Shown piece by piece: positions 4,633 through 19,149 of a stretch of DNA of 27,917 bases. Source of the DNA: a virus; the IMG/VR virus record IMGVR_UViG_3300046538_000183, positions 1 through 27,917 of that record. One strand, written 5' to 3'. Position 1 is the stretch's first letter, and each line of letters starts with the position of its first letter. The position numbers and the translations under genes are program-made. A model generated the notes under the pieces. That model was not told the DNA's origin. It saw only the letters and a program-made list of their open reading frames with translations, and searched no databases.

Positions 4633-5485
4633 AGCTACCGTCCTCCCGCTGAATCAGTCCGTCGGTGTAGTTGCGGTCAGCGAAGCCAGTGTGACGGGAC
4701 TGAGCGGCCGGTGCCGGGGCCGACTCAGCCATGCGCTTGATCACCCAGGACGCCTTGAATCCCTGCCACCCAGAAGTCAGGGCTTCGGTGATTGCGTCGG
4801 ATGCCGAGATTCCAGCATCGGCGCACTTGACCAGTTCAGCGTTGACGGTCGACCAGACAGTGGCGGTTACGGCGGCGCGCTTGGCCTTGCGCTGGGTCAG
4901 CCAATCGGCCAGCAGTTGCTCAGGGACGTTGTGCGGGTTGTCGGCCAGCAGCTGGGTCATGCCGAACGGAGCCTTGCGATCAGGCTTCGGTTGTTCCGGT
5001 TGCTCTTGGGGCGGATTAATCTCTTCCGAAGGAAGAGTTAATAGGGGTTCTTTCTTTGTATAAAGAAGGCAAGTTGCCGTTTTGGTCTCACTCGCATCAG
5101 GTCTCAGTGAGACGATTTGGGCTGAGTGAGACGATTTGGTCTCAGTGAGATTTACAGGTTTTTCCTCATAGAAGGACCACTCGCGAATAGGGGAAATCCC
5201 GATATCACCTCGGCTCCCCCCTACACGAAAAATGATTCGACGCTCAAGGAGATGACTGATCGCTTTCGACGTGACGTCTCGGCGCATGTTGGTCTGCTTG
5301 CCGATATCGTCGGCGGTCAGGCGCTTGGTTTCGAGTTGATAGCCGATGGTCTGCCGTGCAATGGCCATGAGAACGCGCAGTTCGCGCGCTGGCAGGTCAA
5401 CCGTAGCCAAAGCCTCCATCAGGCTGTTGTCCATACGGGTGAATCCCCTGCTGCTGTTCAGCTGGATGATGTTGTCGGGGGTCAT
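4622..5485 (-). CDS. O: Phage replication initiator, lambda O-like
   Basis: A 287-residue origin-binding protein. Residues about 10-105 form the winged-helix domain of the phage replication protein O family (FTRMDNSLMEAL, ARELRVLMAIARQTIGY, DIGKQTNMRRDVTSKAISHL). Residues 110-175 are a low-complexity linker whose DNA carries four iterons and an AT-rich tract, and residues 180-287 are the helical C-terminal part expected to contact the helicase loader. AGGGAG lies before the ATG at 5485. Gene layout, internal origin and the following dnaC match lambda O-P. Confidence 0.92.
   Translation of the reverse strand: MTPDNIIQLNSSRGFTRMDNSLMEALATVDLPARELRVLMAIARQTIGYQLETKRLTADDIGKQTNMRRDVTSKAISHLLERRIIFRVGGSRGDIGISPIREWSFYEEKPVNLTETKSSHSAQIVSLRPDASETKTATCLLYTKKEPLLTLPSEEINPPQEQPEQPKPDRKAPFGMTQLLADNPHNVPEQLLADWLTQRKAKRAAVTATVWSTVNAELVKCADAGISASDAITEALTSGWQGFKASWVIKRMAESAPAPAAQSRHTGFADRNYTDGLIQREDGSYAF
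5015..5156 (-). other. Putative replication origin inside O: four iterons plus AT-rich tract
   Basis: Copies of GGTCTCAGTGAGACGATTT start at 5100, 5119 and 5138, an exact 19-base period; a diverged copy starts at 5084. Each contains the near-palindrome TCTCAGTGAGA. Downstream in the leftward direction, 5015-5080 is AT-rich (repeated TTCTTTC/TAATC-type runs) and could be the unwinding element. Iterons beside an AT-rich tract in the middle of the initiator gene are the lambda ori design. The DNA also codes for the O linker, where sequence change is tolerated. Confidence 0.8.
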
Positions 5486-6923: not shown

Positions 6924-7133
6924 TTAGGCGGCGTGACTTGTATTTCGGGGGCGCGCTGGAATCGGGCGGATTTCATTTGCCTCGACGCGACCGTCATCAA
7001 GAAGCGAGATTTCGATGTTTCTTCCAGACCTAACCATCTGGGAAATCGCGCTCTGATTTACCCCGAGAGCTGCAGCCAGCACGGCTTGGGTGCCGTGTTT
7101 ATCGAGATATTCATTCAAAGGAATCTTTTTCAT
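6924..7133 (-). CDS. cro: Cro-like repressor
   Basis: A 69-residue protein of the lambda Cro type: strand, then a helix-turn-helix (TQAVLAAALGVNQSAISQMVRSGRNI, here spanning about residues 15-40), then C-terminal strands (IEISLLDDGRVEANEIRPIP). Cro proteins bind the cI/cro operators and shut off cI during lytic growth. It is divergent from cI, with three operator motifs and both promoters in the 116-base gap. First gene of the leftward early operon. Confidence 0.88.
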   Translation of the reverse strand: MKKIPLNEYLDKHGTQAVLAAALGVNQSAISQMVRSGRNIEISLLDDGRVEANEIRPIPARPRNTSHAA

Positions 7134-7163: not shown

Positions 7164-7192
7164 ATAGTAGCAGCGCTACTTTTTATGAGCAA
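7164..7192 (-). promoter_or_regulatory. Leftward early promoter for cro (pR-like)
   Basis: On the minus strand TTGCTC (7192-7187), a 17-base spacer and TACTAT (7169-7164); predicted start near 7157, 24 bases before the cro ATG. The -10 overlaps operator 1 (7166-7180), so repressor binding would block it. The same operator-to-minus-10 spacing is repeated at 14172-14188. Confidence 0.7.
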
Positions 7193-7236
7193 CAAATTAC
7201 TAGCAGCGCTATTTGTGATTTAAGCAGCGCTGCTAA
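7166..7236. promoter_or_regulatory. cI/cro operator region, three sites
   Basis: Operator 1 is AGTAGCAGCGCTACT (7166-7180). Operator 2 has the core TAGCAGCGCTA (7201-7211). Operator 3 is the perfect palindrome AGCAGCGCTGCT (7223-7234). Centres lie at about 7173, 7206 and 7228. Sites 1 and 2 bracket the cro promoter; site 3 covers the spacer and first base of the cI -10. The motif recurs twice at 14149-14186. CI and Cro are the expected ligands by analogy with lambda. Confidence 0.82.
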
Positions 7237-7239
7237 TAC
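7212..7239 (+). promoter_or_regulatory. Promoter for cI (pRM-like), giving a near-leaderless mRNA
   Basis: TTTGTG (7212-7217), a 16-base spacer and TAATAC (7234-7239). Transcription would start near 7246, only about four bases before the cI ATG at 7250, and no good ribosome site precedes that ATG. Lambda cI is likewise leaderless from pRM. Operator 3 overlaps the promoter, which suggests autorepression. Confidence 0.6.
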
Positions 7240-7249
7240 TCTTGTAGGT

Positions 7250-8050
7250 ATGAAAAAACGACGCCCTTTAACACCCGAAGAATTAGCTGAGAGCGTCAGA
7301 CTCAAAGCTATTTACGAAGAAAGAAAAGCAGCAGCTAAGTCTTCCGGAGCGAGTCTCACTCAGGCAGATGTGGCCGAGGCATGTGGGTGGTCAGGTCAAA
7401 GCGCTTTCAGCCAGTACGCTACTGGAAAGGTGCCACTGAACCTTGAAGCACTACTGAGGCTGGCAAAGGCTCTTGACTTCAGTCCCGAGCAAGTCAGCAC
7501 TCGCCTTCTTTCTATGGTGAGTATCAATTCTGCGCCGAGCGACATAGAGCCACGAAGAGTCGCAGAACTCGTGCCCATGAGCATTTGGGATGAGGACACG
7601 CCGCTCGATGACGATGAAGTAGAGGTTCCGTATTTTGCCGAGGTTCAACTGGCTGCCGGAAGCGGCATGACACACGTCGTTGAGGTTCCAGGAAGGAAGC
7701 TGCGCTTCTCCAAGGCCACACTCCGTGAGGCTGGCGTAAGCATCAATGACGCCATGTGCGCGAGGGTTCACGGAAGGAGCATGGAGCGAATGATTCTGGA
7801 CGGCGCAGCTGTCGGCGTAGATCGCGGCCAAACAGACATTATTGATGGTGAGATCTATGCCTTTGACCATGAAGGCATGCTTCGGACCAAGTATCTCTAC
7901 AAGATGCTAGGCGGCAGCGTCAGGGCTCGCAGCGAGAATCACGAGGAATATCCTGACGAGATATTCACGCCGGAGCAAATGGCCGAAATCAGAATTCTTG
8001 GTCGTGTTTTTTGGTGGTCAACTGTTCGGCGAGCGCCTCGTCGAGGCTGA
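7250..8050 (+). CDS. cI: CI-type repressor, self-cleaving S24 family
   Basis: A 266-residue lysogeny repressor. Residues about 34-75 form the helix-turn-helix (SLTQADVAEACGWSGQSAFSQ). The C-terminal half is a LexA/S24 peptidase domain with a predicted cleavage bond Ala136-Gly137 (LAAGSG), nucleophile Ser177 in HGRSM and general base Lys214 (LRTK). RecA filaments should trigger self-cleavage, making the prophage SOS-inducible. The ATG at 7250 is chosen over an upstream one at 7160, because that extension would translate the operators. It is preceded by the three operators and followed by accessory genes. Confidence 0.93.
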   Translation: MKKRRPLTPEELAESVRLKAIYEERKAAAKSSGASLTQADVAEACGWSGQSAFSQYATGKVPLNLEALLRLAKALDFSPEQVSTRLLSMVSINSAPSDIEPRRVAELVPMSIWDEDTPLDDDEVEVPYFAEVQLAAGSGMTHVVEVPGRKLRFSKATLREAGVSINDAMCARVHGRSMERMILDGAAVGVDRGQTDIIDGEIYAFDHEGMLRTKYLYKMLGGSVRARSENHEEYPDEIFTPEQMAEIRILGRVFWWSTVRRAPRRG

Positions 8051-8938: not shown

Positions 8939-9340
8939 CTGCCACCATCCAGGCCGCATCCGACCGATGCAGAGCGAAAAATTGCTGATGGACCATGCCA
9001 CGTATTGGCGACCGTGCATGCCCTAATCCGAGAGAAAGGATACAAAGGCATTCACGTCGCTACAGAGGATGGATCAGGAGAAATGATTGACTATTGCATG
9101 GATGAGCAAGACTTGGCGGATCTGGTTATGTCTCTTCGAGACAGGCATTACAACGGGTCCGAGTGGTGTAAATTTTCACCGGCTAGCCCATGGTTCGAAG
9201 CAGATTCGTACCGAATTCGGAAAGCTGAGAAGCTTCCCTCAGAAAGAGATGTTCGTCAATGTAGTTATTATTTGAAGTTCTCAATAAACAAACTAGGTTC
9301 GATGATACTATTTTTTTCAGTTCATAGAGATAAATTATGA
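8918..9340 (+). CDS. MqsR-like toxin (putative RNase), gene 1 of a three-gene cassette
   Basis: A 140-residue protein. Its second half follows the MqsR plan: a Leu-rich helix (DLADLVMSLRDRHYNG), a Lys in the K56 region (EWCKFSP), a Trp/Tyr segment (PWFEADSYRI) and two final strands (SYYLKFSINKL, MILFFSVHRDK) like the YLKIT...LIVSF end of E. coli MqsR. MqsR is a RelE-fold mRNA interferase. It is about 40 residues longer than E. coli MqsR, and the glutamine of the active site is not obvious, so specificity may differ. Its stop overlaps the antitoxin start (ATGA), toxin first as in mqsRA. Identification leans on the neighbour as much as on the sequence. Base composition is AT-rich. Confidence 0.65.
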   Translation: MVNTNKRLPPSRPHPTDAERKIADGPCHVLATVHALIREKGYKGIHVATEDGSGEMIDYCMDEQDLADLVMSLRDRHYNGSEWCKFSPASPWFEADSYRIRKAEKLPSERDVRQCSYYLKFSINKLGSMILFFSVHRDKL

Positions 9341-9963
9341 ACAACTTAGAGATTTGCCCAGTATGCTGTGAAGGGCACCTGCATAGTTATTATTTCTCAA
9401 GAGAAATAAACTATAAAAATGTGACGTGCAAAGCTGATGCATTTGAGTCTTCTAGATGCAATGTTTGCGGATCATCTGTTGCGACACATGCACAAACCAA
9501 GCACAACAAACTACTAAGCATAAATTTTCAGCGTGCGGTTGACGGCCTCCTTTCAACTCATGAAGTTTTTAGAATAAGAAAAAAACTAAAGATGTCACAA
9601 AGAATGGCATCTACTATTATTGGTGGCGGAGGAAATGCCTTCTCCAAATATGAATCCGGCATAGTTAGACAATCAATTGCCGTTGATAACATGCTTAGAG
9701 TTCTTGATTTAAAGCCAGCACTAATTGAAACATTGATGAAGGCTGACGAGCAGCGTCGAGCACTCGCATCTGTTCAAACAGAAATTTATATTCCTTCCAC
9801 TATTCCGCATAAACCTGCTGACGGTCCATTATTCTCTTTTTTCAAAGAGGTTGTAGTGGCCGCCCAGACTGCGTTTCTTCCTACAGTGGTGGAGCAGCCT
9901 GCAAATCACCGGATCAGTTCAAACGCTATTAATTTCGAATTTTGTGGCGGCAGGCCAACATGA
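9337..9963 (+). CDS. MqsA-like antitoxin with long C-terminal extension
   Basis: A 208-residue protein with the two MqsA domains. The N-terminal zinc domain has Cys7-x2-Cys10 and Cys41-x2-Cys44 and would bind the toxin. The helix-turn-helix at about residues 76-133 contains RIRKKLKMSQ, GGGGNAFSKYESG and LRVLDLKPALI, closely like E. coli MqsA; the Asn of the DNA-reading helix is kept. E. coli MqsA ends about here, but this protein continues for some 74 residues (135-208). The extension has a hydrophobic stretch (PLFSFFKEVVVAAQTAFLP) and could be an added recognition segment. Overlaps both neighbours by four bases. Confidence 0.85.
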   Translation: MNNLEICPVCCEGHLHSYYFSREINYKNVTCKADAFESSRCNVCGSSVATHAQTKHNKLLSINFQRAVDGLLSTHEVFRIRKKLKMSQRMASTIIGGGGNAFSKYESGIVRQSIAVDNMLRVLDLKPALIETLMKADEQRRALASVQTEIYIPSTIPHKPADGPLFSFFKEVVVAAQTAFLPTVVEQPANHRISSNAINFEFCGGRPT

Positions 9964-13005: not shown

Positions 13006-13368
13006 ATGAAAATCAGAGCGACGGTCGTCTGCGAACAAAATCGCCACGTGCTCTTGGTGCGGAAGCCTAAAAGACCCTGGACGCTTCCTGGTGGAAAATT
13101 GAAGCGCGACGAAACAAATGCTGAAGCAGCGATTCGGGAGCTCAACGAAGAAACCGGCCTAGTCGTCGACACCCTGCTCTACTTAATGGTTTGGTCAGGT
13201 GATGGGGCGCAGCATCATGTGTTCGAGGCTTCCGTCCTAAATTTGGAAGAAGCACGCCCGCAAAATGAAATCTGTGACTGCATCTGGCAACCTCTTGATG
13301 CAGTTCATGCCTTAAAAATTAGCAACGCAACACTAATGATTCTGAAATCTTTCCAGCGCCGCTTATAG
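13006..13368 (+). CDS. Nudix hydrolase
   Basis: A 120-residue Nudix-fold enzyme. The complete Nudix box G-x5-E-x7-REUxEExGU is at residues 30-52 (GGKLKRDE start, REL-N-EETGL end); the glutamates bind the divalent metal. Nudix enzymes hydrolyse nucleoside diphosphates linked to another group. The exact substrate cannot be read from the sequence; oxidised nucleotides or cofactors are candidates. GGTGGA precedes the ATG. It sits among phage accessory genes and its stop touches a leftward gene remnant. Confidence 0.93.
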   Translation: MKIRATVVCEQNRHVLLVRKPKRPWTLPGGKLKRDETNAEAAIRELNEETGLVVDTLLYLMVWSGDGAQHHVFEASVLNLEEARPQNEICDCIWQPLDAVHALKISNATLMILKSFQRRL

Positions 13369-14086: not shown

Positions 14087-14104
14087 ATAGCCAACTCACG
14101 CCAG

Positions 14105-14128
14105 AGCCCGCCAAGTGCGGGCTTTTTT
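14105..14128 (+). terminator. Rho-independent terminator
   Basis: AGCCCGC, loop CAAGT, GCGGGCT and five more T, 18 bases after the zinc-ribbon gene. It closes the accessory block just before the second repressor-controlled promoter. Confidence 0.9.
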
Positions 14129-14148
14129 ACGTCCGCGAGAAAATATAT

Positions 14149-14188
14149 TAGCAGTGCTATTTACATGTTTTAGTAGCAGTGCTACTTT
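14149..14188 (+). promoter_or_regulatory. Second repressor-controlled early promoter (pL-like) with two operators
   Basis: TAGCAGTGCTA (14149-14159) and AGTAGCAGTGCTACT (14172-14186) match the cI/cro operators 2 and 1 except for the central base (T for C). The promoter is TTTACA (14160-14165), 17-base spacer, TACTTT (14183-14188): the first operator abuts the -35 and the second covers spacer and -10. The same geometry occurs at the cro promoter. CI should therefore silence the whole rightward early operon in a lysogen. Confidence 0.82.
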
Positions 14189-14246
14189 TACTCCATCGCA
14201 ACCGGCACCCAATCAGGGGCCAGCTGCGAAGGGTCGAGAGATCCGC

Positions 14247-14290
14247 CGCTCTTTAGCTCCACCACTTCACCTTGCCGGATCACCACCGGC
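14247..14290 (+). promoter_or_regulatory. nut-like leader: boxA motif and boxB-like hairpin
   Basis: CGCTCTTTA (14247-14255) matches the boxA consensus, and 18 bases on a hairpin GCCGG-ATCACCA-CCGGC (14274-14290) could serve as boxB. They lie 60-100 bases downstream of the pL-like promoter, where nut sites occur in lambdoid phages. The boxA-boxB spacing is longer than in lambda, so this is a suggestion. A further hairpin, ATGCACC/GGTGCAT, is at 14482-14503. Confidence 0.45.
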
Positions 14291-14308
14291 CCAGATTCAA
14301 AGGCAGCG

Positions 14309-14443
14309 ATGAACCGGCCTCAACGGTTCAGAGGGTTGGCAACTGACCCGGGCGTGCAGCGTAAAACGCCAAGAACAGTTATCCAGCGGGAGAACAAGCC
14401 GAAGGGCCCGCGGCTGGAAGAACAATTTGAGATAGGCCAGTGA
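14309..14443 (+). CDS. Small Arg-rich protein, first gene after pL (44 aa); possible N-like factor
   Basis: A 44-residue, strongly basic product (MNRPQRFRGLATDPGVQRKT, then RTVIQRENKPKGPR) with an acidic tail (LEEQFEIGQ). AAAGG lies seven bases before the ATG. It is the first frame after the pL-like promoter and nut-like leader, the place of lambda N, and an Arg-rich N-terminus is what boxB-binding peptides have; N itself is longer (107 residues). It may instead be an unrelated small early protein. No known family recognised. Confidence 0.5.
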   Translation: MNRPQRFRGLATDPGVQRKTPRTVIQRENKPKGPRLEEQFEIGQ

Positions 14444-14522
14444 TCGACGCCAGTAGCGGGTCACGCCGGAAAGTTTCACTGATGCACCTGGCGACGGGTG
14501 CATTGGGAAAACAACCGAGGCC

Positions 14523-14558
14523 ATGACCATGACCATGACCATGACCATGACCATGAAC
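14523..14558 (+). repeat. Hexanucleotide tandem repeat at a gene start
   Basis: Five perfect copies of ATGACC (14523-14552) followed by ATGAAC. Every unit is an in-frame ATG, so loss or gain of copies keeps the frame but changes which ATG is best spaced from the GAGG at 14517-14520 and how long the Met-Thr lead is. Confidence 0.9.
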
Positions 14559-14855
14559 AAAGAACAGGTTTACGACGACCAAATCAGCCCGCTCATGCAG
14601 CAGATCATCGGCATCTGCAAGGACCAGGGTATCGCAATGATGGCGAGCTTCGACATTGCACATGATGGCCAAGGCCCGAATGGCGAAGACTGCTCCAGCT
14701 TGGTATGCAGCACTTTACTGCCCGATGGCAACGACGAGCCAAACCCAGTATTTGCCCAAGCTAATACCCTCATCCGTCGCGGCGGCCGACCCGCACCGAT
14801 GATGTTCACCACCGAACATGGTGACGGCTCCAAAACCATGACAGCGGTGATCTGA
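14523..14855 (+). CDS. Hypothetical early protein with repeated start codons (up to 110 aa)
   Basis: An acidic protein of 100-110 residues depending on the start used; the N-terminus is (Met-Thr)5-Met-Asn-Lys. GAGG at 14517-14520 is two bases from the first ATG and eight from the second (14529), so 14529 may be the main start. The body (YDDQISPLMQQIIGICKDQGIAMMASFDI...) looks like a small alpha/beta protein; I do not recognise a domain. It is the first sizeable gene of the rightward early operon, 334 bases after the promoter. Confidence 0.75.
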   Translation: MTMTMTMTMTMNKEQVYDDQISPLMQQIIGICKDQGIAMMASFDIAHDGQGPNGEDCSSLVCSTLLPDGNDEPNPVFAQANTLIRRGGRPAPMMFTTEHGDGSKTMTAVI

Positions 14856-14910
14856 TTTCACTGACTGGCCTTGGCGACAGGGCCAGGTGGGAAATCACTC
14901 GGAGAAAATA

Positions 14911-15204
14911 ATGGCTAAGAAAGTCGGCAGAACGACCAAGACAGCGTCCATCACAACCCGGGTTAGCCCAAGAATGCGGCACTTGATGGATGTGATGAGC
15001 CGAAGTCAGCGACGGTCACTAACCGCTGTAATTGAGGCGGCTATAGAGAGCTACGCGACCGAAGCTGAAATAGCCTTGGCCAATTCGACCTGGTCGACAG
15101 ATGAAGGCGAACGACTGCTGAACCTATATCAGCAAGCACCTCAACTCTGCTCATTCGATGAGGAGGTTGACGCAAAGGCTGCGGTGACTGCTCGTAATTG
15201 CTGA
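14911..15204 (+). CDS. Ribbon-helix-helix-like small regulator (97 aa)
   Basis: A 97-residue protein. After a basic N-terminus (MAKKVGRTTKT), residues about 12-50 read strand-helix-helix (ASITTRVSPRMRHLMDVMSRSQRRSLTAVIEAAIESYA), the CopG/MetJ-type ribbon-helix-helix pattern; the acidic C-terminus may mediate contacts. The ATG at 14911 follows CGGAGAA by five bases; an in-frame start at 14887 is less well supported. Probably an early DNA-binding regulator; target unknown. A 17-of-18 repeat of CTCTGCTCATTCGATGAG lies at its end and again 66 bases later. Confidence 0.75.
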   Translation: MAKKVGRTTKTASITTRVSPRMRHLMDVMSRSQRRSLTAVIEAAIESYATEAEIALANSTWSTDEGERLLNLYQQAPQLCSFDEEVDAKAAVTARNC

Positions 15205-15720
15205 AAGCATCACCTCTGCCCATTCGATGAGTGGGCTTTGGGATGCGGACGAAACTGCGGCCTATAACCGCCCACCTGCATCACAACCAACTACCGAGGA
15301 ATGCTCGGGAGTTGCCCACGTCACGGAGGATGCGCCATGAAGTAGACCAACGCTTCCCCCGCGTGGCGCAGCAAGCCTGAAGGCTGCACCCAACACCTAT
15401 ACAGGCAGCGGACAGTAGGCCGTCGATGTCACCGCGCATCGGCCGGGATTCCGGTAGGCCACCCCAGCGAACACAGACAACTTGATGAAGCAAACCAAGG
15501 CCGTCGCCAGTCGCGGGCCTTGGCTCCCCTCCCCGACACCACCCGCATGCATTCCCCTCCGCGCCCAACGGCAACCAGCGGACCGGATGAGTGCAGCCGG
15601 GTTTTGTTGACGAAAGGCCCGCATGGCCGAAGGATCCCGCCGCATTAGCTGCGGTCAATATGTTTAAAAAGGATGCGGGCGGCCCTCGCCCTACTCCACC
15701 TCGCCCATCTGGAGGCGATC
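15205..15720 (+). other. Non-coding gap of 516 bases in the early operon
   Basis: No convincing gene is visible, although the rest of the operon is tightly packed. It contains a repeat of CTCTGCYCATTCGATGAG near 15212, a strong GGAGG (15325-15329) followed by ATG-AAG-TAG (15337-15345), an inverted repeat CCAAGGCC/GGCCTTGG (15495-15523) and a small hairpin near 15640. The GC-rich minus-strand frame at 15281-15658 has unnatural composition and no ribosome site. The stretch could be a structured RNA or leader. Confidence 0.5.
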
Positions 15721-16143
15721 ATGAACACCCCGCATAGTTCGCAGCTTAAACACCACCACCGCAAGCCGCTTCCAGTGAGCGATAGCCCGCCGAATACAGC
15801 CCGCTCTGAATGGCTCTACAACGCCGCCGAAGACCTACTGCGAGGCTCTGGCGTGACCATCCAGCGCCGCATGCGCAAGCCACATGGCGTGACCGCCGAT
15901 CAATTCGCCCTGGCGGTTGATGAGTACGTCAACAACCGCCTTGCTGATTGCAAAGTTCAGACCTCTGCGCTTGGCTGGCTGATCATCACCGCCGAGCGAG
16001 GACAGGCCGACAAGACCGCTACAGCCGAACTGCTGGGCCCCAGCGATCACCCACTGGGCAAGCTTGGCGAAATCGCCGAGGCGCTGCTTGAGCCACTGGC
16101 CGATGAAGCTCTGATCGCTCAGTCCGAGGACAACGAGCTGTGA
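15721..16143 (+). CDS. Hypothetical early protein (140 aa)
   Basis: A 140-residue soluble protein, unrecognised. A His-rich basic start (LKHHHRKPLP) is followed by helices (SEWLYNAAEDLLRGSG, ADQFALAVDEYVNNRLA, ALGWLIITAERGQADKTATAELLG) and an acidic tail. GGAGG five bases before the ATG at 15721 fixes the start. It opens a run of four overlapping small genes leading to bet, so it is likely part of the recombination operon. Confidence 0.75.
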   Translation: MNTPHSSQLKHHHRKPLPVSDSPPNTARSEWLYNAAEDLLRGSGVTIQRRMRKPHGVTADQFALAVDEYVNNRLADCKVQTSALGWLIITAERGQADKTATAELLGPSDHPLGKLGEIAEALLEPLADEALIAQSEDNEL

Positions 16144-16355
16144 GCACTCAGAAAGCTATAGCCGGAATTCAGTTCGAGATCGCGAGACTTTCGCGCTCTT
16201 TCAGCCCGGTGCCGGACCGAACGTTTGTGATGGGCATGATCGAGTTGGCCGAAGTCGCCGAGCTTATCGATCGCGCCACGGCAAACCGTTTCCGTGATGC
16301 GCTTGACGCGAAGTTCTGCGAGCGCAATGACTTCCTGAAGAGGACCACCCCATGA
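16140..16355 (+). CDS. Small hypothetical protein, GTG start (71 aa)
   Basis: A 71-residue helical protein (QKAIAGIQFEIARLSRSF, MIELAEVAELIDRATANRFRDAL). The GTG start overlaps the TGA of the gene before it (GTGA), with GAGGA eight to nine bases upstream, and its own stop overlaps the next ATG. Coupling on both sides supports it. Function unknown. Confidence 0.7.
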   Translation: MSTQKAIAGIQFEIARLSRSFSPVPDRTFVMGMIELAEVAELIDRATANRFRDALDAKFCERNDFLKRTTP

Positions 16356-16546
16356 GTACTGCACCGGTTAAAACGCTGATCGATGAGCAGCTCGATGAGA
16401 TCGAATCGAAGTTGGTCCTGCTCGGATTCGGCCTCCCGTTCAACGAAGTGATCGGCAAGTCCCGCGAGGCTCTGGTCGCCAGCTTGCCGAAGCGCCTGGC
16501 GGCAACCATGAAAGGTGGACGGATAGCGGTGAGGGTTCGGCCTTGA
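16352..16546 (+). CDS. Small hypothetical protein (64 aa)
   Basis: A 64-residue protein, helical first half (VKTLIDEQLDEIESKLVLLG) and basic C-terminus (KRLAATMKGGRIAVRVRP). Overlaps the preceding gene by ATGA and the following TTG-start frame by TTGA. AAGAGGA precedes it. Unrecognised. Confidence 0.7.
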   Translation: MSTAPVKTLIDEQLDEIESKLVLLGFGLPFNEVIGKSREALVASLPKRLAATMKGGRIAVRVRP

Positions 16547-16659
16547 CCTCCCGCCAGCGCAACCGACGCCTGCTGATCTGGCGCGGCTCTCTTCCGGTCC
16601 TCACCCTCTTCGCCTTCCTGATGTTGCTCGGCGCCCCCGCTGATCGCGCAACCCAATAA
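16543..16659 (+). CDS. Very small membrane protein, TTG start (38 aa)
   Basis: A 38-codon frame whose TTG overlaps the preceding TGA (TTGA). The product has an Arg-rich N-terminus (TSRQRNRRLLIWR) and one hydrophobic segment (LPVLTLFAFLMLLGA), consistent with an N-in single-pass membrane peptide. GAGGG lies nine bases before the TTG. It ends 43 bases before bet. Size and start codon make it uncertain, but the overlap pattern matches its neighbours. Confidence 0.55.
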   Translation: MTSRQRNRRLLIWRGSLPVLTLFAFLMLLGAPADRATQ

Positions 16660-16702
16660 CCCACACCTTCAAACGCTGCGTGCATCGCGGCAAGGATTCC
16701 TC

Positions 16703-17521
16703 ATGTCCGCAGTAATGAAGCAAGCAGACAACTTGCCGGCGCTGTCTGAAGACGCGCTCGTCGAGGTGCTGAGCGGAAGCTTGTACCCAGGCGCAGAACG
16801 CAACTCCGTCGTAATGGTGTTGGCGTACTGCCAAGCCGCGCATCTCGATCCGATGCTGAAGCCGGTGCACATCGTTCCAATCTGGAACTCGAAAGCGAAA
16901 AAGATGCAGGACACGGTCATGCCTGGGATCGGCCTCTACCGCATCCAAGCGGCACGCACCGGGCAATACGCAGGCATAAGCGATCCCGAATATGGCCCGC
17001 CGATCACCGCGAAGCTATCTGGCGTTGACGTCACCTACCCGGAGTGGTGTCGGGTAACCGTAAAGCGGCAGATGTCCAACGGGCTTGTCGCCGAGTTCAC
17101 CGCCAATGAGCGCTGGCTCGAAAACTACGCCACCGCCAGCAAGGACAGTGCTGCTCCAAATGCCATGTGGAAGCGCCGCGCCTTTGCTCAGCTCGCCAAG
17201 TGCGCCGAGGCCCAGGCCCTGCGCAAAGCATTCCCCGAGGTCGGGTCGGCTCCTACTGCCGACGAAATGGAAGGCAAGACCTTCGATGACACGGCGCGCG
17301 ATGTAACGCCGCAGCCATCCGCGGTTAAACAGGCCGAAGCCAATCCTGATTATTCGGACGAGAAGTTCGAAACGATGCTTCCGACTTGGCAGGCCGGGAT
17401 AGACCAAGGAAAGACCAACCCCGAGACGCTGATCGCGTTTCTTCAATCCCGATACACGCTCAGCGAAGCGCAGATCGACCGAATCAATCGAATGACACCC
17501 CTCGACGGAGAATCCGCATGA
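16703..17521 (+). CDS. bet: Phage recombination protein Bet (RecT/Red-beta family annealase)
   Basis: A 272-residue single-strand annealing protein. Family features in order are AYCQAAHLDPMLKPVHIVPIW, MPGIGLYRIQAARTGQYAGI, a central substrate strand region (VTYPEWCRVTVKR) and AMWKRRAFAQLAKCAEAQALRKAFP. The C-terminal 80 residues are a variable tail. It anneals complementary single strands exposed by the partner exonuclease, whose gene follows with a four-base overlap (ATGA, 17518-17521). Length fits lambda Beta (261). Acts in phage DNA recombination and recircularisation. Confidence 0.95.
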   Translation: MSAVMKQADNLPALSEDALVEVLSGSLYPGAERNSVVMVLAYCQAAHLDPMLKPVHIVPIWNSKAKKMQDTVMPGIGLYRIQAARTGQYAGISDPEYGPPITAKLSGVDVTYPEWCRVTVKRQMSNGLVAEFTANERWLENYATASKDSAAPNAMWKRRAFAQLAKCAEAQALRKAFPEVGSAPTADEMEGKTFDDTARDVTPQPSAVKQAEANPDYSDEKFETMLPTWQAGIDQGKTNPETLIAFLQSRYTLSEAQIDRINRMTPLDGESA

Positions 17522-19149
17522 AAATCCATAACGTAGCTCAAGGCTCCGCCGAGTGGCACGCCCTGCGCGCTCAGCACTTCACCGCCTCCGAAGCCCCCGC
17601 CATGATGGGCGCCTCGAAGTACCAAACCCGCACCGATCTGTTGACCCTGAAAAAGACCGGCATTGCGCCGGACGTCACGCCGTCTCAGCAGTTCATTTTT
17701 GACAAGGGCCACGCCACTGAAGCGGCGGCCCGACCACTGGTCGAGACGAAAATTGGCGAAGAGCTGTATCCGGTTGTAGGAACGCTGGGAAACCTGCTCG
17801 CCTCAATGGACGGCGCGACGATGCTCGGCGAGACATTGTTCGAGCACAAGCTCTGGAACGAATCGCTGGTCGCCCAAGTGAAAGCCGAAGAACTTGCCCC
17901 ACATTACTACTGGCAACTTGAGCAGCAGCTGCTGGTGAGCGGTGCCGAACGAGTGATCTTCGTTTGTTCGGACGGCACCTCGGAAAACTTCGTAAGCATG
18001 GAATATCGAGCCGTTCCCGGCCGCGCGGATCAGCTGGTTAAGGGATGGAAACAGTTCGAAGCGGATCTGGTGGTGCACGAAGTCTCCAGCGCACCATCGA
18101 TCGTCGTCGGCAAAGCACCTGACGAACTACCAGCGCTGCGCATCGAGCTGACTGGCATGGTCACCGCGAGCAACCTCAAGCTGTTCGAGCAATCGGCACT
18201 GGCGGTCATCGACTCGGTGAAAACCACACTGCAAACCGATCAGGACTTCGCGGACGCCAAGAAGGCTGTGAAGTGGTGCGGTGATGTTGAAGAGGCCGTC
18301 GCCGCGGCGAAGAAGCAGGCGTTGTCGCAAACTCAGACCATCGACGAGCTGTTTTCGTCGCTGGATCGCGTCTCGGCACACGCCCGCGAGACTCGCCTGA
18401 AGGTCGACAAGTTGGTGAAAGCGCAGGAACTGCTGGTGAAGACCAACATCAAGCAGAAAGCCGAACAAGCGCTGATTGATCACATCGCCGCGATTAACAA
18501 AACCCTGGGCAAAGTGGTTCTTCCAAACGTGGCCGCTGACTTTGCTGGCGCCATGAAAAACAAGCGCACCATCGCCAGTTTGCAGGATTCTGTTGATACC
18601 GAGCTGGCCCGGGCAAAGATCGATGCAAGCCAGGCAGCTGACTGCATCCGCCTGAACCTGACCAGTCTGGCTGAACTCGCCGCTGACCATGCATTCCTGT
18701 TCAGCGATGTTCAGCAGCTAGTGCTGAAAGCGAACGACGACCTTGTGGCGCTGATCAAGGTTCGGATTTCGGAACACAAGAAAGCTGAGGAAGAGAAAGC
18801 TGAAGCCACTCGGATACGAATCCGTGAGGAAGAGTTGCAACGGATCGCCGACGATGAAAAGGCCAAGTTGGCCGTCGCGGCTGTTGTTGAACCTGCACCT
18901 GTAGCGACACCCGCACCAGTGAGGGCAGCGCCAGCAGTGCATCAGGCAGCATCCAAACCTGTGACGGCTCCAGCGGTGAATTTGCAGGCCGAGGTCTTCG
19001 ATCTTGAGGCGCTGGTCAAAGCCGTGGCTTACGGCCAGGCCCCTCTATCGGTTCTGTCCGTCAACTGGGAAGCGCTCGATGCGCTTGTCGCGAATCAGGG
19101 TTCCAAGTTCAGCATGGCCGGCGTGAGGCTGGTGAAGGTGGCCGCATGA
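17518..19149 (+). CDS. YqaJ-type phage exonuclease with long coiled-coil extension
   Basis: A 543-residue protein. Residues 1 to about 200 form a YqaJ/lambda-exonuclease-like nuclease: SEAPAMMGASKY, GHATEAAARPLVE (Glu68), ASMDG (Asp98), FEHKLW (Glu109, Lys111), and YYWQLEQQLLV with the Gln pair at 133/136. These supply the PD-(D/E)xK metal site. Residues about 215-470 are long charged helices (DUF1351-like in appearance), followed by a Pro-Ala linker (485-520) and a small C-terminal domain. The typical domain alone is 200-330 residues. It should resect double-strand ends for Bet. It overlaps bet and the next gene by four bases each. Confidence 0.88.
   Translation: MKIHNVAQGSAEWHALRAQHFTASEAPAMMGASKYQTRTDLLTLKKTGIAPDVTPSQQFIFDKGHATEAAARPLVETKIGEELYPVVGTLGNLLASMDGATMLGETLFEHKLWNESLVAQVKAEELAPHYYWQLEQQLLVSGAERVIFVCSDGTSENFVSMEYRAVPGRADQLVKGWKQFEADLVVHEVSSAPSIVVGKAPDELPALRIELTGMVTASNLKLFEQSALAVIDSVKTTLQTDQDFADAKKAVKWCGDVEEAVAAAKKQALSQTQTIDELFSSLDRVSAHARETRLKVDKLVKAQELLVKTNIKQKAEQALIDHIAAINKTLGKVVLPNVAADFAGAMKNKRTIASLQDSVDTELARAKIDASQAADCIRLNLTSLAELAADHAFLFSDVQQLVLKANDDLVALIKVRISEHKKAEEEKAEATRIRIREEELQRIADDEKAKLAVAAVVEPAPVATPAPVRAAPAVHQAASKPVTAPAVNLQAEVFDLEALVKAVAYGQAPLSVLSVNWEALDALVANQGSKFSMAGVRLVKVAA

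Follow-up and report, generated by a model that had tools for sequence, protein, structure and literature searches.

A probable early left promoter with paired repressor operators in a lambda-type Pseudomonas phage and the leader RNA shared with its relatives

The stretch of DNA analysed here, 27,917 bases of a viral record and hereafter called the window, carries between positions 14147 and 14188 what is in all probability pL, the early left promoter, of a Pseudomonas phage of the lambda type; its two operators would serve the CI repressor that the phage itself encodes, and probably Cro as well. The original prediction, made from the sequence alone, had placed at this point a second, pL-like promoter under repressor control, heading the rightward early operon; the comparison across relatives supports it, and we consider it very likely that the finding is real and that its interpretation as pL is right. 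A switch with paired early promoters is of a known kind, and the novelty, if any, would lie in the leader RNA that these promoters have in common.

Results

The operators of the window

The exact motif TAGCAGYGCTA occurs four times in the window (7168-7178, 7201-7211, 14149-14159 and 14174-14184), where the mean of 100 dinucleotide shuffles is 0.02 copies and none of the shuffles contained four. The original prediction had counted three sites in the cI-cro interval and a pair at the right-hand region: the right-hand pair stands, with exact copies at 14149 and 14174, as do two of the cI-cro sites, the third (TAGCAGCGCTG, 7225-7235, minus strand) departing from the motif by one mismatch. At the position of this third site, OR3, most relatives have TATCAGCTCTGCTAATA, and the site abuts a possible -10 hexamer of the cI promoter (TAATAC, 7234-7239). 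When two mismatches are tolerated, 16 matches are found in the whole window for 10.4 expected, a difference that is not significant, so that the weight is carried by the exact sites only and degenerate matches elsewhere in the window are meaningless.

An operator covers the -10 hexamer in the same register at the cro promoter and at 14149-14188, as the original prediction had it, the sequence AGTAGC-AGY-GCTACT overlapping the -10 in both (Table 1). The -10 of pL has three of the six consensus bases; a generic sigma-70 scan gave no promoter above threshold at pL or pR. The transcript of pL is predicted to start near 14195. Just upstream of pL we read an intrinsic terminator, formed by GAGCCCGC-CAAGT-GCGGGCTT and a T-run, which a consensus terminator scanner did not list at 14104-14127, perhaps owing to a stem that extends into the T-run; other Pseudomonas phages and prophages likewise have terminator-like sequence ahead of their operators.

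In the window, 14 and 12 of the 15 bases are self-complementary in the oL sites and 12 and 10 in the oR sites, and this greater symmetry would allow a higher affinity of oL, symmetry not being a proof of it. At the centre of the motif, the two exact cI-cro sites have C and the two right-hand sites have T, which had been taken for a systematic C-to-T change setting different affinities. The split is true of the window but not as a rule: when the sites are classed by the complementarity of the bases flanking the centre, non-palindromic oR sites accompany palindromic oL sites in only 3 of 47 loci (L027, L047 and the window), and a systematic affinity code is rejected on this count.

Table 1. Features of the immunity region, of pL and of the rightward early operon in the window
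Feature	Position	Strand	Sequence or basis
cro	6924..7133	-	PF09048 Cro, E 7.5e-16; PDB 2pij Prophage Pfl 6 Cro, E 7e-31
pR (cro promoter)	7164..7192	-	-35 TTGCTC 7192-7187, 17 bp, -10 TACTAT 7169-7164; direct reading
OR1	7166..7180		AGTAGCAGCGCTACT; exact motif, conserved; overlaps pR -10
OR2	7199..7213		ACTAGCAGCGCTATT; exact motif
OR3, imperfect	7222..7235		AAGCAGCGCTGCTA; one mismatch, - strand
cI repressor, HTH + S24 peptidase	7250..8050	+	PF00717, E 9e-19; PF13560, E 1e-8
Intrinsic terminator, just 5' of pL	14104..14127	+	hairpin -13.9 kcal/mol, then T-run
OL2, distal operator	14147..14161		ATTAGCAGTGCTATT; exact motif, aligned across 47 viral loci
pL -35 hexamer	14160..14165	+	TTTACA, direct reading; TTTACN or TTGACN in nearly all relatives
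OL1, proximal operator	14172..14186		AGTAGCAGTGCTACT; exact motif, 14/15 bases self-complementary; overlaps -10
pL -10 hexamer	14183..14188	+	TACTTT, 17 bp after the -35; shared by nearly all close relatives
boxA-like element in pL leader	14246..14255	+	CCGCTCTTTA; conserved GCTCTTT-type element
Structured pL leader RNA (model R2)	14246..14370	+	boxA and four predicted hairpins; covariation in 39 loci
R1 copy 1, just before ATG at 14523	14470..14514	+	model match 48.7 bits
Rightward early operon, first part	14523..19149	+	RecT-like 16703-17521 (phrog_2449, E 1.8e-105); RecE-like ending 19149 (phrog_7655, E 5e-229)
R1 copy 2, just before ATG at 14911	14852..14898	+	model match 54.5 bits
R1 copy 3	15204..15249	+	model match 50.5 bits

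Conservation of the paired module

A search with the CI protein gathered 59 viral loci, whose alignment was anchored on the motif. In 47 loci, the window included, two operators lie 25 bp apart with the same placement of the -35 and -10 hexamers, and no other such pair is present in the 830 kb of these loci. The pair is separated from OR1 by 1.6-7.0 kb (median 3.7 kb), the window having the longest distance, 6,981 bp. The viral loci devoid of the pair are mostly short contigs or carry distant CI relatives. Loci from bacterial genomes served as an independent test set, and there the pattern was found in all 12 of those in which CI aligns from residue 1, its N-terminus being intact.

Two Pseudomonas loci from bacterial genomes lack the pair. 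One of them (L088) has a CI with a different DNA-binding domain and a different motif upstream; the other (L076) was considered as a natural swap of the DNA-binding domain and rejected, its cI being a truncated remnant. In three loci (L085, L086 and L087), the oL pair directly follows cI, about 870 bp from the cI start, which is the shortest spacing seen.

These data bear on the possibility that the two sites are indeed CI operators, yet govern a local transcript, lysogenic or accessory, and not the early lytic operon. The first gene after the promoter (14523-14855), which has no recognised function, speaks for such a transcript; the promoter, on the other hand, is oriented toward plus-strand early genes, RecT and RecE among them, the module keeps its place before the early genes over the whole variation of its distance from cI, and D3 and H66 carry it in the same place. 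We therefore regard a local transcript as improbable and retain the early left promoter. As a side observation, the first gene of the operon opens on tandem ATGACC repeats (14523-14558), which offer several in-frame starts (MTMTMTMTMTM...) and are present in fewer copies in relatives.

Joint change of the operators and the CI recognition helix

The cI-cro interval of more distant CI relatives carries other motifs. In D3, H66, BUCT566, FBPa19, Aurca01, PAN70, L010 and L056, the best pair found elsewhere in the locus matches the phage's own cI-cro motif. These second pairs are located downstream of cI and flank a -35 hexamer of the type TTGACN, TTTACN or similar, with a spacing of about 17 bp and the nearer operator over the -10. 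In a 9 by 9 comparison of motifs, the mean score is 27.9 with the own motif versus 23.2 with the motifs of the other phages. Four of the nine phages scored equally well or better with a foreign motif, all within similar operator groups, the ties or reversals involving the window, L056, PAN70 and L010 on one side and H66 and Aurca01 on the other. Several single-locus scores are near the control maximum, so that it is the agreement among the phages, and no single one of them, that carries the weight.

The CI helix SGQSAFSQ is found in every phage with the TAGCAGNGCTA operator that was checked, including relatives whose CI is only about 55% identical overall (range 55-97%), while PAN70 and L010 have SAQS(V/T)VNQ, H66 and Aurca01 have (S/T)(S/T)QSAASH, and other helices occur elsewhere. 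Read at the level of sequence, the operators at both promoters change together with the recognition helix of CI. The recognition helices of the two regulators of the window are similar (NQSAISQ in Cro, GQSAFSQ in CI), so that Cro could bind these operators too. That the sites are bound by Cro or another phage regulator and not by CI is nevertheless very improbable, because the operator sequence follows the CI helix across families and because loci whose CI has lost its DNA-binding domain, or has another one, lack the motif as well. The last explanation, a chance repeat or a transcribed repeat devoid of binding function, has a negligible probability: genomes of this sort often contain palindromes that resemble terminators, and OR1 itself was called terminator-like by the scanner, but the expectation of 0.02 exact matches, the 25-bp spacing fixed in 47 loci and the distinct motifs matched within each phage all speak against it, and the joint change of operator and CI helix refutes it in practice.

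A common leader RNA and a hairpin element

A boxA-like sequence follows the left promoter in nearly all loci, D3, BUCT566 and Aurca01 included. The GCTCTTT-type element lies 82-107 nt from the start of oL in 46 of the 48 loci examined, the other two having GTTCTTTAACAA. The model of the structured leader, R2, was built from eight sequences; of the 149 Pseudomonas genomes sampled, 89 contain the leader according to this model. Among 39 loci, 8 of the 24 pairs are changed on both sides for a shuffled mean of 3.0, and 34 cells are changed on both sides versus 7.8 in shuffles, with 99.3% of the cells paired, these figures coming from an alignment that is fitted to the model, and so biased toward R2, and whose rows are related. 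Quite different operator pairs precede the leader, for example TTAACCATCGGTA, ATATAAGCCTGCTTAT, TATGGGAATACCCAT and TGCATNNATGCA. Rfam 15 yielded no credible match in the window, and none for the leader or for the R1 hairpins in six related loci.

A 44-codon open reading frame inside the leader (MNRPQRFRGLATDPGVQRK..., 14309-14443) was considered as an N-like protein and rejected: in Aurca01 it is stopped at codon 5 and the hairpins still pair. This frame is conserved in many loci and is probably not a protein gene.

In 10 of 30 fetched loci, the leader is flanked by the gene of an S24 repressor and that of a holin. The arrangement of prtR-like S24 repressor, leader and holin is seen in L092 (leader at 4715-4807, minus strand) and in L109, L111, L112, L114-L119 and L121. 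In one such locus that was read further, the holin is followed by an amidase, near RsmZ, which is consistent with the prtR-hol tailocin locus, known to sit between mutS and cinA (PMC2647930).

R1 is a two-stem element whose copies 1 and 2 in the window lie 8-13 nt before a start codon. Its covariance model gave 59 matches in 47 sources, all on the plus strand, and 13 more in genome loci, again all on the plus strand; each phage has one to four copies, only on the pL coding strand. The seeds having been picked by required pairing, the covariation of R1 is not independent evidence, but its strand-specific placement is.

Discussion

The mechanism we envisage combines the control of two divergent early promoters by the same repressor. 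In the lysogen, the binding of CI to OL1, over the -10, and to OL2, beside the -35, would block the access of RNA polymerase to pL, as OR1 and OR2 would do at pR. The cleavage of CI after DNA damage, or the action of Cro during lytic growth, would set both divergent early operons together, and the rightward transcript initiated near 14195 would run through the boxA-bearing structured leader into the recombination genes (RecT, RecE). A joint control by Cro is not to be assumed, since the left operators of phiKO2 are bound by the prophage repressor and not by Cro (PMC4997575). CI looping over 7 kb would be possible, as the full OL and OR of lambda form loops across 20 kb with an efficiency of about 16% (PMC8053113).

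As in the lambda immunity region, cI and cro are divergent, CI is of the S24 type, Cro belongs to the Pfam family of lambda Cro, both early promoters are overlaid by operators, recombination genes follow pL, and rep-O, CII-type and NinG genes follow pR. The three cI-cro operators, two exact and one imperfect, and the recurrence of their motif at a second early promoter, on the far side of cI, are features of the lambda type. To the left of cro lie a CP76-type CII (Phage_CP76), Phage_rep_O, an AAA ATPase, NinG and a holin. The repressor family had been described as unrelated to that of lambda, which does not hold: CI (HTH and Peptidase_S24) matches the lambda repressor chains (E 1.6e-5) and Cro (Pfam Cro) the lambda Cro chains (E 1.2e-7), the closest solved Cro being that of Pfl 6. 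The window nevertheless differs from lambda by the sequence of its operators, by the presence, as in its relatives, of two left operators in place of three, and by an oL-oR distance of about 7.0 kb versus 2.3 kb; in HK022 and phiKO2 the oL-oR spacing amounts to about 0.7 kb and about 0.63 kb, respectively (PMC8053113). No N protein was recognised in the window, and in 45 loci the 1.4 kb that follow pR showed no boxA or lambda-type nut site.

Three left operators do not define the wider kind, because N15 and phiKO2 also have two. The immB region of these phages contains five operators, of which three separate the repressor from cro while the left region has the other two (PMC4997575), a 3+2 layout like that of the window; unlike those of the window, their left operators precede repA and lie only about 630 bp from OR (PMC4997575, PMC8053113).

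The significance of these observations is that the map of a lambda-type switch is fixed in a group of Pseudomonas phages. They offer dozens of natural examples of operators at two separate promoters that change together with the CI recognition helix, which should be useful for the study of repressor-operator recognition, and the distance between the operator regions, from about 0.9 to 7 kb, forms a natural series for the question of long-range CI looping. We infer the function of the leader from its boxA and its position only. In a joint reading that we offer tentatively, with slightly less than even confidence, the constant part of the promoter would be its RNA: R2 would act as an antitermination or processing signal both for the early operons of Pseudomonas lambda-like prophages and for the prtR-holin tailocin locus, the operators would be exchanged freely with the repressor, and R1 would mark the first gene starts of the same operons. 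Thanks to a common leader RNA, immunity regions might be swapped with no need to rebuild early transcription, and the control of prophages would be tied to that of tailocins.

Among known phages, D3 is a lambda-like Pseudomonas phage which has three annotated operators between cI and cro, and in which this analysis found a left operator pair and a boxA; unlike the window, it has a different CI helix and the operator TATGGGAATACTCAT. In the D3 record the left pair, at about 44961-45035, matches the phage's own annotated cI-cro operators and is itself unannotated. Prophage 06 of P. fluorescens Pf-5 is lambdoid and resides in the same host genus as the phage of the window (PMC2647930); we take it to be the prophage from which the structure of Pfl 6 Cro (PDB 2pij) derives. 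Finally, an MqsA-antitoxin-like gene and a NUDIX gene (9337-9963 and 13006-13368) are found between cI and pL, in a stretch whose length varies among relatives, where they occupy the place of the rex genes of lambda.
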